DNA of 64,000 nt. Source: Anaerolineae bacterium. Lineage in GTDB: Bacteria > Chloroflexota > Anaerolineae > Aggregatilineales > J027. Made by a program: the position numbers and the translations under genes. The stretch's first letter is position 1. Each line of letters starts with the position of its first letter. The notes under the pieces were generated by a model, which did no database searches, was not told the origin of the DNA, and saw only the letters and a list, made by a program, of their open reading frames with translations. Shown one piece after another: positions 162 through 25,981 of this stretch. The stretch spans positions 1 to 64,000 of the forward strand of contig JAIOHL010000083.1 in the NCBI GenBank assembly GCA_019913005.1. The letters run 5' to 3'.

Positions 162-1937
162 TTATGATGGTGCTATAGTATCAGCAGCACAGCGAAAACC
201 ATAGGTTTCCCCGGCCACAAATGGGCTGTCGGAGGCACGTGCCGTCGTGCGAAAATCAGCCACAGTGGTAATCCCATCCGCCGATGGCCCTCCACCACGC
301 AGCACTCGCATATCACCCCGTCGTGGGCCAGTGGGGTTTTCTTCGGTGCTTTCCGAATAATAGGTATCGCTAAACCAATCCTGTACCCATTCACGGGCAT
401 TGCCAGCCATATCCAATAATCCAAAGGGGCTGACTCCGTTTGGATATGTTCCTACGGCGACCATGCTGCCCGCATTAATGTCATTCACATTGGCTGGGGT
501 CGTTCCCTCGACCACTAACTCATTGCCCCAAGGATATTGGCGACCATCTGTGCCACGCGCCGCAAATTCCCATTCGGCTTCGGTTGGCAGACGTTTGCCG
601 GCCCATTCGCAATAGGCCACTGCGCCTTCCCACGTCACACCCGTTACAGGAAATTGCTCCTCGCCTTCGGCAAAACGGGCCAATTCCGAGGCGGGGCGTT
701 GGATAATGGTCACATCATCAGAATACAAATTGAGCCAAGCGGGGGGTACTTCCGGTGCGACTTCGCCGGGGTTACTGTTCGGGCGACCATCATAGCCGCT
801 GCCTGAGCCTTGAAAGAGCAAAATCATAATTTCATAGCCATCAGGGTCAACATAGCCATCGGCGGGGTTTGCCAAAGAGTAGCAGCATGTCCCATCAGCT
901 TTTAAGATGCGGCCTTCAGCATCCCGCACCCGATGGGTCACCATGACATGTGCCCCAATATCGAAATAGAGCTGCTCGTCGCCGACGTAGACATCAGCCG
1001 ACCCCCATGTCGAAACGGGCGAGACAATCAATGGTAAAAAGCTACCTTCCTGTCCGCTGTCGCCGTGCATGAGTACATGGTCGCCAACCCCACCCTCTTG
1101 AAAGGACGAGGTTTCAAAAAAGACACGCTGCTCGATCCGAATATCCCCTTCAACCTCAAGACCACTTTCGGGCGTAATTTTGCCCGTAAACTCAGCAATA
1201 ACCTCCCCATCGTTGGTGTCGGCGTCCAAGTTAATGGTGATCTTGCCATCCGCATATGGCGTAATTTCCGCCCCGTCGTAGGACTGGCGATTATCAATAT
1301 TGCCGACGACATAGATATTGTTGCCTTCGACTTCCCACACCGAGGGTTCGTCACGTACCCATGTTGAGGGTTCGGGTGAGCCGGTTTCGACCACAAACTG
1401 CATATATTGTTCGTTGGTGACTTCGGTTAAGTCCATAAAATAGGGCGATAGGGTAACACGGTGCGAAGGGCTTTCTGCTTCCTCTCCACCACTTGATCCC
1501 ATGTTAAAGGTGCCGCCGGGGATATAGGCCATACCAGCAGGAGCAGGTGGGTTCGGCTCGTCTGTGTCAGCCTTGTCTTGATTATCGTCTCCCCCCAGAA
1601 ACATCCACAGGATTGCCAATACCGCGATCAAAACCACTGCCGCCGACACCCCCCCCAACAAAAATATATTACGCTGTTGGGGCTTGGTGATAATATTCGG
1701 GACAGAGGGACGAGACCCTTCTGGAATCACGATGGTGCTATGGGTCATATCTATTTGGGCAGTGGCGCGTGGCATAGCCGATTGGGTGATCTCTTGGGTG
1801 CTGACAAAAATGGTCTTGTCGGACAAATCACCGGAATTGGCATCCAGTTCTTTAATCATCTCCTCAACGGTGGCGTAACGCTGTTCGGGGTCTTTGGCAA
1901 GCGCCCGCAAAATGACGGCCTCGGTGCGAAAATCCAA
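162..1937 (-). CDS. Membrane Ser/Thr kinase, C-terminal part: TM helix and FGE-like (SUMF1) domain; separated from its kinase domain by a frameshift
   Basis: This frame starts with the end of a kinase domain ([17 protein letters not shown], typical of the PknB C-lobe), so it is the downstream half of the gene at 1856-2665. One transmembrane helix lies at about residues 91-114. A formylglycine-generating-enzyme-like fold starts at about 134 ([10 protein letters not shown], then TEVTNEQY) and resumes at 429-584 ([38 protein letters not shown]). About 230 residues of beta-rich sequence are inserted between the halves. The C-terminal cysteine pair used by true sulfatase-activating enzymes is not seen after VLRGGG, so a binding or sensing role outside the membrane is likelier than catalysis. 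The start shown (TTG, 1937) is only the first in-frame start codon after the shift. Confidence 0.8.
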
Positions 1938-2665
1938 CGACTCGACGGCTTTGCTGGGGCGGGGGGCTGGGCTTGGATATGCTGAATGAGTACATTGGCA
2001 AACGAATCACCTTTAAAGGGAACATCGCCTGTCACCATCTCATATAGCACAATCCCCAACGAATAAATATCGGTGCGCGGCGTGATTTCCTGTCCCGATG
2101 CTTGTTCAGGGGCCATATAAGCAGGTGTACCGGAGCTTGTGCCTGTCGCCGTCAACCGCACATGTCCAGCCAGTTTTGCCAAACCAAAATCGGTGAGGAC
2201 AGCCCGATCTCCCACCAGCACAATATTGGCGGGCTTGATGTCGCGGTGAATCACCCCATTTTTATGGGCATAGTCCACGGCCATGCCGATTTGTCGAAAG
2301 ATGCTCATGGCACGCGCGACAGGCATTCCGTTGGAGTGGTCGGAAATTAAATCTCGTAGGGTACTCCCTTCCAAGATTTCCATCACCATGTAATAAATAT
2401 TGCCCTGAACCTCAAAATCATAGACCCGCACGATGTTGGGATGCGATAATCGTCCGGCAGCTTGGGCTTCCTGCCGAAATCGAACCGACCCATCTTTGCT
2501 ATCCACAATTGCGGGGTGCAGCACTTTGATGGCGACATCTTGGCCTATGTCGGGATTATGCGCCCGGTAGACTTCCGCCATGCCGCCGCGCCCTAATAGC
2601 CCTTTAATCTCATATTTGCCCAGCTTAAAACCGGGCTTCAAATAACTTAGTGGCGCTTCAGTCAT
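1856..2665 (-). CDS. Ser/Thr protein kinase (PknB type), N-terminal kinase domain; frameshifted near 1960
   Basis: This is a Hanks-type kinase with all key elements: glycine loop GRGGMAEVY (residues 25-33), Lys47 in VAIKVL, catalytic loop HRDIKPAN (140-147), DFG (159-161) and APE (185-187). It should phosphorylate Ser/Thr on cytoplasmic proteins. After residue 238 (QPPAPA) the frame runs into unrelated sequence, while the expected kinase end continues in the next frame (162-1937). Adding one C in the C-rich stretch at about 1957-1970 would join them into one protein of about 830 residues: kinase, TM helix, FGE-like domain. The ATG at 2665 follows a weak purine-rich stretch. A TPR membrane protein is divergently transcribed upstream. 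Confidence 0.88.
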
Positions 2666-4365: not shown

Positions 4366-4725
4366 ATGTATACTGCAAATGAACTAATGTTTCCACGACA
4401 GGCAATCCCAGAATTAAGGGCGATGCGCGGCCCGGAATGGCGCGGGTTGGTAGATCGGATTTCGGCACTGCCCGAAACGCATGAAGAAACCCTTGCGTTT
4501 ATGTTGATGATGATTCGTTTGAATGGTTGCCTTGAATGTGAAACGGATAGTTACCGGGCGATGAAGGGATGTGATGCCTGTGCAATTCAAACCCTACGCC
4601 GCTATAAGGGGCCAGATAGTGACCTCATGAAACTTTTCCAACAGGCCCTTGCAGAAATACGCGATCAGCTTGACGTAATGCCGCCTGTGCGAATACCAAC
4701 CGCCAATTTAGTAGCTGTTTTTTGA
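4366..4725 (+). CDS. Small conserved-looking protein with two CxxC pairs
   Basis: The protein has 119 residues, is mainly helical and has no membrane segment. Cys55/Cys58 (CLEC) and Cys69/Cys72 (CDAC) make a CX2C-X10-CX2C arrangement suited to binding zinc or an iron-sulfur cluster. It contains no enzyme motif that I recognise. ATG 4366 follows an AGGGATG stretch about 13 bases upstream. It is separated by 155 bp, including a strong stem-loop, from the pseudo-histidine-kinase pair downstream. A perfect TATAAT at 4186-4191 lies in the 247 bp gap upstream, but no clear -35 accompanies it. Confidence 0.7.
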   Translation: MYTANELMFPRQAIPELRAMRGPEWRGLVDRISALPETHEETLAFMLMMIRLNGCLECETDSYRAMKGCDACAIQTLRRYKGPDSDLMKLFQQALAEIRDQLDVMPPVRIPTANLVAVF

Positions 4726-4880: not shown

Positions 4881-6185
4881 TTGTATCGTGAACCAGATTG
4901 GGAAGCCTTAAATGACCTAAACTTCCTGCTGCACAATCGGCTGGTGAGTCCCTTGAATGGCGCATTGTCGGCGATTGAAAAAGCTGCCCCGACAACTGAG
5001 GCGGATTGGTGGCGTAACCGTGCAACCAGTCAGGTCGCCAATGCCATTAATTTGGTCAACGCTTGGTCGTGGCTTATCCAATATAAAGCACAGGGGCAAG
5101 TCCCCGAACGCAGCATCCAATCGTTCCCCATCCAAAATTTGGCGGATTGGTTGACGATGCAACTTCAACTGGTTCCGCCGCTGCTTATCGCCAAAAATTT
5201 CCTTATCCGAGCCAATCAACCCGCCCTCCAAGAAGCTCTGTATCTGCTGTACGATGTGGCCGCCAGTCAGGGCACCACTACCAAACTGATCTTGGATACA
5301 GGGTCGAATGGCGTGCTGTTCCGCATCCGTTTTACCCGCCTGCATGACACTAAACCGTTTACATCATTAGAGGAAATGGAAACCTCACTGGGTCAACATT
5401 GGCGGGGCAAGATTATCACCTTTGAACTGCGCATGGCCCGAGAATTCTTACGGATGAACGCCAGCGAACTGCAACTGCGGGATAATGGGTCAAAGGTCGA
5501 ATTTGTTTTTGTCATCCACCGCAAATCTAAAGCCGAAAATGGCGAAACGGACAGCAGCCTATTGATTCCATCGCATGACAGTCAAGCCGTCATCAATATC
5601 GCTGAAGCCACTTTGCCAATGCCCCATACCTTAGAACAAGGACCCATTACCAGCGAATCCACCACTGCCCATCTTAAAGCCATCTCTACCCCGGAAGAAA
5701 CATGGGTCTTAAAACCGACCACCATCCGGGCCTCTGCCGAAATCCCGACAGCCGCCTCATCAATACGGGCAATGGTTCCCGATACCCCCTTCCGCCCCGG
5801 TGGTTGGTATCGTCCCAAACGCGCCTCAACACCGCCTGTACTACCTTCAGCCACTCCCACGCCAGAGGCTGCCTCGGTCATTGTTAAAGTCGAATTACCA
5901 CCGCCCGCCGAACCGGGAGATTTTAAGGTGAAATCTCGCCGCCTCGCTTCCAAAACTACCAGCCAATCTCTGCCTCAAGTGACGATTACGACGGAAGCAC
6001 CCTCGGTTTCGGCCACTGGGCCGCAAGAAATTTTAGCCGAAGCGCCTTCGGAAAAAGCCAAAGATTCGCCTGCACCAACCCAAACGCAGGAAGCCGAACC
6101 ATCTGTTGATACTCGATTGCAAGCCAGCAGCCCCGATTCTAGCGGGCAAGAAAGCTTAGAGAGGAATTATGCCAATGGATTATAA
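4881..6185 (+). CDS. Degenerate histidine-kinase-like protein A, with Pro-rich tail
   Basis: Residues 1-75 look like a dimerisation helical hairpin, with LLHNRLVSPLNGALSAIE resembling a histidine kinase H-box. Residues 85-215 resemble a GHKL ATPase domain in layout, with a helix (ALQEALYLLYDVAAS) where the N-box should be and a final FELRMAREFL...VEFVFVI strand-helix-strand unit. The Asn of the N-box and the glycine-rich G1/G2 boxes are missing, so ATP binding is doubtful. Residues 220-434 are Pro/Ser/Thr/Ala-rich and probably disordered. TTG 4881 is the likely start, with AAAAGG 10 bases upstream. It overlaps the next gene, a paralogue, by 17 bp. The histidine-kinase relationship is inferred from pattern only. 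Confidence 0.7.
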   Translation: MYREPDWEALNDLNFLLHNRLVSPLNGALSAIEKAAPTTEADWWRNRATSQVANAINLVNAWSWLIQYKAQGQVPERSIQSFPIQNLADWLTMQLQLVPPLLIAKNFLIRANQPALQEALYLLYDVAASQGTTTKLILDTGSNGVLFRIRFTRLHDTKPFTSLEEMETSLGQHWRGKIITFELRMAREFLRMNASELQLRDNGSKVEFVFVIHRKSKAENGETDSSLLIPSHDSQAVINIAEATLPMPHTLEQGPITSESTTAHLKAISTPEETWVLKPTTIRASAEIPTAASSIRAMVPDTPFRPGGWYRPKRASTPPVLPSATPTPEAASVIVKVELPPPAEPGDFKVKSRRLASKTTSQSLPQVTITTEAPSVSATGPQEILAEAPSEKAKDSPAPTQTQEAEPSVDTRLQASSPDSSGQESLERNYANGL

Positions 6186-7491
6186 AAGTCTGCACTGGGA
6201 ATCAATTGCTTTCTTGCAAGAGCATCTGTACCAGCAGCTTACCGACCCGTTAAGCAAGGCGATGGGTTACTTAGAATTAGCGGTGGGAAAAGAGTTAACC
6301 TTTAGCAGTCCCAAATTCATCGGGGACGCAAGCCGCAATCTTGAAATTCTAATGATGCTGGTCAAAAGCTGGTCCATCCTGACGGAGTGGAAATTTAAGG
6401 GCAGTGTGGCTGAAGCCGAATTTCAGCCGCTGGCCCAAGAGAAATTCCCGGAATGGCTGCTCAATGAAATTGGTGAACAGGCCGTTCTGCGCTTGGAACA
6501 TACCCGTACTCTAAAAGTTCAGCGTGACACCTTTTTTGAGGGACTTATTTTGCTGGTCAGCATTGCCAAGACCGTTGGTGAAATCAGCCATGTCATGTCA
6601 AACGATGCCGAGGAGCCTCACACTGGGGTTTGGCTGCGGGTTGTATTTAAACCGCCTAAAGCCGAAGGGTTTCAAAGTCGTGCAGCCGTCTTGGAATATT
6701 TGAGCACCACAGATTCCTCCACAGAGACCGTCATCCAATATGCGGTTGCGGATGATTTGTTTGCCATCAATAATGCACGCTTTAGCCTCCAGAAAAATAC
6801 ACGCACAGGTCATCAAGCCTTTGCCATGCTGCTGCCCGTTGTAGGTCGGCCTGCGTCTAGCCCGCCCAAATTAGCGGATATAACCCCCATGCTGACCCTA
6901 TCACAAACGGGGACGCTGGTGATACCCTCATATACTCCCGAAACTTATGCACCTGCGGTATCCACTGTTGAGGTAGTTGAAGCGCCGCCTGTTGTACCCA
7001 CGCCTGAGCCAGAAGCGCCCCCGGTGCCTGCGGTTGATCCACTAGCGACAATTACCCTCGAACCCCCGGCGGTTTTGATCCCAGTTGCCGAAGATGACGT
7101 TACGGCGACCCCGCCTGCCAAACGCCTGACGCTGTTGGAAATTGTCAAACGCACCGAAACCAGCGAGGGGATGGAGGGTGATAAGTCTGAAACTCTGATT
7201 ATCAACCCGTTTAAAACAACAGGCATCAATATGACACCCCCTGAACCGCTGACGCTGCCACCCCAAAGCGAAAACATTCCAGCGGAAAGTGTACCGCTGA
7301 ATCTGCCCAATGCCGCTGGCATGGGAGCACTGTCGAAGGCCCTGTTGCAAATGCACGCCGAAGCCAACCTGTCCGCCAGCGACGCGACAGAATCACCCTC
7401 CGAAAATCGTGATGATGCCGCTAATACGTCCCTATCGGGAGGTGAACAACCGAACGACACCACCAATTCGGGTTCATCCGCCTCCGCTTAA
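6169..7491 (+). CDS. Degenerate histidine-kinase-like protein B, paralogue of the upstream gene
   Basis: It aligns along its length with the preceding gene: FLQEHLYQQLTDPLSKAMGY matches the H-box-like helix, KSWSILTEWKFKGSV matches NAWSWLIQYKAQGQV, and TGVWLRVVFKPP matches NGVLFRIRFTRL. No phospho-acceptor His-Glu pair and no N, G1 or G2 ATP-binding boxes are seen. The last 200 residues are Pro/Ala/Thr-rich. ATG 6169 has GAGG 5-8 bases upstream and lies inside the previous gene, so the two are translationally coupled and may form a heterodimer. A strong terminator follows at 7524, ending the unit. Confidence 0.7.
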   Translation: MPMDYKSLHWESIAFLQEHLYQQLTDPLSKAMGYLELAVGKELTFSSPKFIGDASRNLEILMMLVKSWSILTEWKFKGSVAEAEFQPLAQEKFPEWLLNEIGEQAVLRLEHTRTLKVQRDTFFEGLILLVSIAKTVGEISHVMSNDAEEPHTGVWLRVVFKPPKAEGFQSRAAVLEYLSTTDSSTETVIQYAVADDLFAINNARFSLQKNTRTGHQAFAMLLPVVGRPASSPPKLADITPMLTLSQTGTLVIPSYTPETYAPAVSTVEVVEAPPVVPTPEPEAPPVPAVDPLATITLEPPAVLIPVAEDDVTATPPAKRLTLLEIVKRTETSEGMEGDKSETLIINPFKTTGINMTPPEPLTLPPQSENIPAESVPLNLPNAAGMGALSKALLQMHAEANLSASDATESPSENRDDAANTSLSGGEQPNDTTNSGSSASA

Positions 7492-25006: not shown

Positions 25007-25048
25007 TCTGCGGAAAAGATTGAGACGATGAGGAAGGCAGAAAACCCT

Positions 25049-25435
25049 ATGCCCAGATTATTGATTGTGGATGACGAAGTCGCCACTGTAGACATGCTCT
25101 CCACCTATCTCAAATTGCTCGGTCACGAACCGCTTGGGGCGTACAACGGCACTGATGGCTTAGTCTTGGTCGAAGTCGAAAAACCCGATCTGCTGATCCT
25201 TGACCTCATGATGCCCGATATTGACGGTTTTGAAGTTTGCAAACGAGTCCGCGCACATGCCGAATTTGCCAAATTGCCTGTTGTGATAATCTCCGCCCGC
25301 ACCGACAAGGACGCCATCGAGAAGGCTTTAGGACTTGGGGCCAATGCCTACCTAACCAAGCCAATCGAACTGGGTAAGCTATCACGTGAGATCAAACAAC
25401 TGCTGCAAAAGAAAACCGATGAGCCGATGGTTTGA
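25049..25435 (+). CDS. Stand-alone response regulator receiver protein 1
   Basis: It is a single CheY-like receiver domain: acidic pair in LLIVDDE, phospho-acceptor Asp in LLILDLMMPDIDGFEVCK, Thr/Ser in VIISARTD and Lys in YLTKPIELGKL. There is no output domain, so it must act by protein contact. ATG 25049 gives the standard MPRLLIVDD start with AGGAAGG 11 bases upstream; ATG 25028 would add seven residues. No histidine kinase lies next to it. Confidence 0.9.
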   Translation: MPRLLIVDDEVATVDMLSTYLKLLGHEPLGAYNGTDGLVLVEVEKPDLLILDLMMPDIDGFEVCKRVRAHAEFAKLPVVIISARTDKDAIEKALGLGANAYLTKPIELGKLSREIKQLLQKKTDEPMV

Positions 25436-25597: not shown

Positions 25598-25981
25598 ATG
25601 GCAGTAACAATTCTTATTGTAGATGATTTGTCGGACATGCGGACACTGATGAGTTTGACTCTCAAGCGCAGCGGATGGAATATTTTGGAAGCGCGGGATG
25701 GACAAGAAGCCGTTGATATTGCCCGACAACACCAACCAGCCTTAGTGGTCATGGATTATGATATGCCCACCAAGAATGGAGCAGAAGCCTGTCGAGAAAT
25801 TACCACTGACCCTACAACCTCTCATATCCCCGTGATTGTCTATACCGGGCACGCCTCGATCCATATCAAAGAGGAATCCTATAAGGCGGGTGCGAAGCAG
25901 TTTTTGGTCAAACCGATCACACCCACCCAACTGCGCCAAGAAATCCAAAATCTGTTGACTGTCTCCAATTTAGATCATTAA
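25598..25981 (+). CDS. Stand-alone response regulator receiver protein 2
   Basis: It is a single receiver domain of 127 residues with ILIVDDLSDM, phospho-acceptor Asp in LVVMDYDMPTKNG, VIVYTGHA and the Lys of FLVKPITPTQL. AAAGGGGTGG lies just upstream of ATG 25598. It has its own promoter-like region rather than joining the upstream receiver gene. The stop overlaps that of the convergent PBP gene by four bases. Confidence 0.92.
   Translation: MAVTILIVDDLSDMRTLMSLTLKRSGWNILEARDGQEAVDIARQHQPALVVMDYDMPTKNGAEACREITTDPTTSHIPVIVYTGHASIHIKEESYKAGAKQFLVKPITPTQLRQEIQNLLTVSNLDH

Follow-up and report, generated by a model that had tools for sequence, protein, structure and literature searches.

Catalytically degenerate histidine-kinase cores in Aggregatilineales: a family of paired or single genes with a proposed scaffold role

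Genes A and B of the window (the whole stretch of 64,000 nucleotides that was analysed) encode proteins that are histidine-kinase cores by predicted fold and are no longer kinases by their residues, the catalytic signature having been replaced, as judged from alignments, by one specific to each family. Both most likely act as a regulatory scaffold and not as enzymes. The reading favoured here, to which a probability of about one half is given, is that A and B are catalytically dead descendants of kinase cores that would provide a docking scaffold comparable to DivL and RetS, with C-terminal tails possibly tagged on Thr by Hanks-type kinases. The features on which this reading is based are listed in the table.

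Table. Features of the A/B locus and its surroundings. Positions refer to the window, except for the YkgJ-type-related genes, which are given on the loci of relatives.
Feature	Position	Strand	Description	Basis
Hanks-type kinase	162-2665	-	FGE-sulfatase-type C-terminal domain; split into overlapping ORFs 162-1937 and 1856-2665 in different frames	
F2, conserved upstream neighbour	4366..4725	+	119 aa; invariant CxxC-ETDSYRAM-x-GCxxC; family unassigned	
Gene A	4881..6185	+	TTG start, 434 aa; pseudo-histidine-kinase core and Pro/Thr-rich tail	ORF, relatives, AF2 DHp-CA fold
A, DHp-like helical hairpin	4899..5093	+	aa 7-71	DSSP on model, hhalign register, column counts
A, acceptor-His position	4935-4937	+	N19; next residue R20 invariant	
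A, CA/GHKL-like domain	5118..5522	+	aa 80-214; without N, G1 and G2 boxes	Model, structural alignment, columns
A, C-terminal tail	5547..6182	+	212 aa; P/S/A/T rich; acidic-Thr-x-x-[ILV] sites, e.g. 5694-5711 (EETWVL)	
A stop/B start, translational-coupling overlap	6175..6185	+	11 bp from ATG 6175, 17 bp from ATG 6169	Junction sequences
Gene B	6169..7491	+	440 aa (438 aa from 6175); pseudo-histidine-kinase core and tail	ORF, paralogy to A, AF2 DHp-CA fold
B, DHp-like helical hairpin	6196..6399	+	aa 10-77	Model, hhalign, columns
B, acceptor-His position	6232-6234	+	Q22	
B, CA/GHKL-like domain	6424..6834	+	aa 86-222	Model, structural alignment, columns
B, C-terminal tail	6847..7488	+	214 aa; conserved SETLII motif at 7186-7212	
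Two consecutive single-domain receivers	25028-25435, 25598-25981	+	Genuine receivers; without adjacent kinase gene	
YkgJ-type-related genes	L034 2714-3013; L036 3133-3615; L035 10037-10552; L037 6685-7203			

Predicted fold and catalytic residues

AlphaFold models, built on alignments of natural relatives (20 of A type, 14 of B type), reached a pLDDT of 87.7 and a pTM of 0.85 for A, and 89.0 and 0.84, respectively, for B. Each model begins with two long helices (residues 7-35 and 41-71 in A, 10-40 and 47-77 in B) followed by an alpha/beta sandwich. When the models were compared with the PDB by Foldseek, the top ranks were all histidine-kinase DHp-CA cores, among them WalK and HK853 for A (E 7e-9) and EnvZ and HK853 for B (E 4e-8); ChpT, DivL and RetS, whose cores are degenerate or unusual, were also found among the matches. 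Alignment to WalK with VIA-align gave Z 14.4 and an rmsd of 3.6 over 198 residues for A, and Z 12.4 and an rmsd of 3.8 over 193 residues for B (4zki), values that are weak by themselves for helical proteins. The assignment of both predicted structures as complete DHp and CA cores is nevertheless firm, because both domains are covered in the right order and the match list is uniform. The helical hairpin and ATPase-like domain that an earlier note had read from the sequence are thus upheld by the models, neither of which showed a fold unrelated to DHp/GHKL.

The register of the phospho-acceptor His was derived from 15 true kinases aligned from the window's own genome. By hhalign, the B segment QLTDPL falls on ELRTPL of these kinases, which places the acceptor His at Q22 of B, and the gapless alignment between A and B carries the position to N19 of A. 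This position is occupied by N, R or S in the A family (n=20) and by Q, R, K or E in the B family (n=14), His being found there in none of these relatives, and the following residue, which is acidic in kinases, is in A the invariant Arg. Of the two N-box Asn positions of A (L122 and V126), the first is Leu in 20/20 sequences and the second Val, Ala, Cys or Gly; the Asp-x-Gly of G1 is absent and an invariant Glu-Leu (TFEL in the window A) stands at GLGL. B contains hydrophobic residues at nearly all N-box positions, with L128 and I132 at those of Asn. The lack of N and G boxes noted earlier was confirmed by hhalign and column counts, to which the loss of the acceptor His, previously unlisted, is added; intact ATP-binding residues were found in neither protein. 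A scaffold role, already suggested in the earlier note, would fit. Column counts define a signature of R20, W62, W90, E118, G131, W174-R175 and E182-L183 for the A family, and of Y21, W96, E124, G137, W155, R157 and F160 for the B family.

The search with HisKA and HATPase_c models (Pfam) that the earlier note had recommended returned no match in A, in B or in the relatives searched (20 of A, 15 of B). At E <= 10 no kinase model of Pfam was matched by any family member and none of NCBIfam by the window A or B, full-length A and B of the window contained no Pfam domain, and a PDB sequence search gave nothing relevant to either protein. Profile-profile similarity to the true kinases (hhalign) is weak (52% and E 1.5e-4 for A, 2.7% for B), so common ancestry with kinases rests mainly on the predicted structure. 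Values of dN/dS were 0.06-0.11 in the domains and about 0.16 in the tails; this strong purifying selection indicates that the genes are not decaying.

The earlier note had also proposed phosphotransfer, a role that the residue counts do not support. In this sense A and B could be cryptic phosphotransferases such as Spo0B, ChpT and PhyT, known degenerate kinases (PMC5898713 for PhyT), that employ another acceptor residue. ChpT structures are indeed among the matches, but the acceptor position holds the residues given above and column counts over 20 A and 14 B sequences revealed no invariant His in either family. His18 of A, present in the window's genus, lies one residue off the acceptor and is replaced elsewhere by Tyr, Met, Leu, Arg or Ser, and this possibility is regarded as most improbable. 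A phosphotransferase using another His was rejected on account of the lack of a conserved His in both families.

Distribution, pairing and descent

A and B are paralogues, as the earlier note had supposed: by BLASTP they share 23% identity over 156 aa (E 3e-10), and their family profiles align by hhalign with 99.7% probability (E 1.4e-26, 212 columns). The two reading frames and the 17-bp overlap described in that note were borne out at the ORF level. Since ATA occurs at the site of the first ATG of B in G002, an 84%-identical relative, and the second ATG (6175) has better Shine-Dalgarno spacing than the first (6169), the junction sequences suggest that the conserved start of B is 6175 and that the real overlap is probably 11 bp.

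The A/B family was detected in 31 of the 154 genomes of the order and spans at least four of its families. In a sample of 396 genomes of the class it was present in 7 (2/222 genera), all of them members of the order, and in the phylum sample in 1/400, the window's own. That genome is a metagenome-assembled one of Anaerolineae, and those relatives of the locus that bear a name are MAGs of Chloroflexi, Anaerolineae and Aggregatilineales. Gene A is 84-97% identical in four members of the genus, and the identity is 36-46% in the order's other families. Both genes occur in 12 of the 31 genomes, A only in 14 and B only in 5, one of the latter being just 69% complete. In two-gene genomes A and B are directly adjacent except at contig breaks, with overlaps of 4-11 bp in the junctions read (4-8 bp, mostly ATGA, in pairs other than that of the window). 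A single 572-aa ORF in G005 fuses A and B; this is a draft genome, in which a sequencing error is possible in principle. Another gene A (G505; L156, C210:3818-4474) is interrupted by a TGA within the first DHp helix, attributable to a sequencing error or to a decaying copy.

All B sequences fall in one supported branch of the tree (100/100) with A around it, a topology whose root is unsure given the very long outgroup branch. The topology is consistent with the duplication of an ancestral A and the subsequent loss of either copy. The coupled overlapping genes and the fused ORF render an A-B heterodimer plausible where both proteins are present, and to this extent the heterodimeric pair of the earlier note stands, but the genomes that carry only A or only B rule out an obligate one; the survey of paired orthologues called for in that note yielded pairs in 12/31 genomes.

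The existence of A-only and B-only genomes would also suit a mechanism in which A-B contact is unneeded and each pseudo-core swaps into the DHp dimers of active kinases, inhibiting or redirecting them in the style of RetS and GacS. RetS and DivL cores occur among the structural matches, and the 106 HisKA kinases of the genome are possible targets. This mechanism is considered unlikely, however, as the coupled genes and the A-B fusion suggest joint action where both partners exist, and no kinase gene is conserved beside A/B.

Gene neighbourhood and C-terminal tails

Neither a conserved kinase nor a conserved receiver or FHA gene was found in A/B gene neighbourhoods. The Hanks-type kinase encoded divergently upstream of A/B is conserved in the genus only; it is one intact ORF of 834-840 aa in four genus members, and its split in the window represents a frameshift or an assembly error. 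The proposal of the earlier note that A and B perhaps serve the lone receivers at 25 kb has no support: the A/B neighbourhoods of relatives contain only distant receiver matches (25-35% identity, 4/19 loci), so that the receivers are not conserved nearby, and HisKA kinases number 106 in the genome.

F2 is located directly upstream of A/B and in the same direction in 30 of the 31 A/B genomes, other flanking genes varying between families. It is highly conserved in Anaerolineae (59-68% identity across families), keeps four invariant Cys and has no Pfam or PDB relative in sequence searches. F2 is not specific to A/B, since 143 of the 154 genomes of the order carry it, mostly without A/B; in genomes lacking A/B it often precedes infC or an oxidoreductase gene, as read by eye. 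F2 is likely a metal-binding housekeeping protein. The sole A/B genome without this linkage (G465; L154, C352, 1-2214) has A next to genes of CRISPR type, by eye a Cmr-like pair, and F2 on a separate contig, which may reflect a rearrangement or a contig that is chimeric. Four genomes of the window's family encode, immediately behind B or no more than about 100 bp from it, a relative of the zinc/iron-chelating CxxCxxCC (YkgJ-type) proteins.

A complex of A/B with F2 as a metal or redox protein, in which A/B report the state of F2, with the pseudo-core as output of a metal or redox sensor, would account for a neighbour retained while the other flanks change, and for its four invariant Cys. On the other hand, the frequent occurrence of F2 without A/B implies that its main role is independent of them, and the adjacency, broken by separate contigs in one genome, may reflect transcription alone; such a complex is very unlikely.

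The tails of A and B are both rich in P, S, A and T and are alignable in short motifs only, e.g. [SD]-x-T-L-I-[IV]-P. The earlier note had described long disordered tails; the length was verified and the composition suggests disorder. A motif consisting of Thr preceded by an acidic residue (-1 to -3) and followed by I, L or V at +3, the general form of Hanks-kinase/FHA sites, was first seen and then tested in the same tails: it occurs 44 times in 18 A/B tails, which as related sequences are not independent samples, whereas shuffling gives 17.1 (at most 29 in 500 shuffles). The equivalent Ser and Ala motifs are at chance (15 vs 15.7 and 21 vs 23.2, respectively), as is the Thr motif in P/T/S-rich stretches from other proteins (205 stretches, 93 vs 88). 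A tails show, in addition, an enrichment of hydrophobics at +2 and +4. In Mycobacterium tuberculosis, phosphoproteomics showed that PknA-dependent Thr sites are acidic at -1 and -3 to -6 and have Leu/Val at +3 (PMC7164672). The window genome contains 51 Pkinase, 33 FHA and 106 HisKA matches, and the acidic-Thr-x-x-[ILV] sites are possibly targets of Hanks kinases, as predicted from their sequence.

The Thr-specific enrichment could also mean that the histidine-kinase fold is a relic and that A and B are phospho-Thr adaptors that serve Hanks-kinase/FHA signalling and are unconnected to two-component systems. The abundance of Hanks kinases and FHA domains in the genome, one of these kinases being divergently adjacent in the genus, agrees with such adaptors, but conservation is higher in the core than in the tails, and the tails of several A-only members measure just 76-121 aa. 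These two facts argue that the core carries the main function, and the adaptor reading is rather improbable.

Proposed mechanism and comparison with known systems

According to the favoured scaffold reading, an ancestral histidine-kinase core would have been stripped of its phospho-acceptor His and of its capacity to bind ATP while its fold was kept under strong selection. The cores would dimerise via the DHp bundle, A:A ancestrally and A:B where both are present, and would offer receivers or other kinases a non-enzymatic docking platform, much as DivL or RetS does. Hanks-type kinases may phosphorylate the tail Thr residues and FHA domains may read them, so that the platform is switched or localised. 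A more elaborate version, namely a heterodimer without catalysis that joins Hanks-phosphorylated tails read by FHA domains with a DHp bundle capturing two-component receivers or kinase cores, is speculative and rather improbable.

Spo0B and ChpT are degenerate kinases that keep a phosphorylatable His. PhyT is likewise a degenerate kinase that keeps its His (PMC5898713). All three are small dimeric proteins composed of DHp and a degenerate CA; A and B share the fold (ChpT structures 4fmt and 4fpp were matched) and the degenerate CA, but they do not keep the His. DivL of Caulobacter has the His replaced (Tyr550), keeps the N, G1, F and G2 boxes and bears PAS sensors, and it docks phosphorylated DivK without chemistry (PMC4211667). 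It resembles A/B as a DHp-CA core without kinase function (structural match 4q20); DivL itself has neither kinase nor phosphatase activity and binds a phosphorylated receiver. Retained boxes and PAS sensors are not features of A/B, which, unlike DivL, have lost all boxes, lack a sensor domain, bear long Thr/Pro-rich tails and occur as a coupled pair.

RetS, cited in PMC9491836 as acting on GacS, is similar to A/B in structure (matches 6dk7, 6dk8 and 7n0e) and regulates through kinase-core contacts by hetero-oligomerisation with GacS, but it is a membrane sensor whereas A and B consist of core and tail only. In ChrS-Ala245fs of Corynebacterium the loss of CA function generated a regulatory pseudokinase (PMC9491836); this is a laboratory-evolved frameshift with an intact DHp, in contrast to the conserved natural family of A/B.

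No such Chloroflexota family was found in the open-access literature on degenerate and pseudo-histidine kinases. Bacterial pseudo-histidine kinases known so far are single cases with most motifs kept, whereas A/B constitute a whole conserved family without any catalytic box. In A/B a complete kinase core was kept and gave rise by duplication to a coupled pair, of which the two members are sometimes fused and sometimes only one is left. The family represents a natural experiment on the DHp-CA fold without chemistry, and it offers a testable place in Chloroflexota to look for cross-talk of Hanks kinases with two-component systems.
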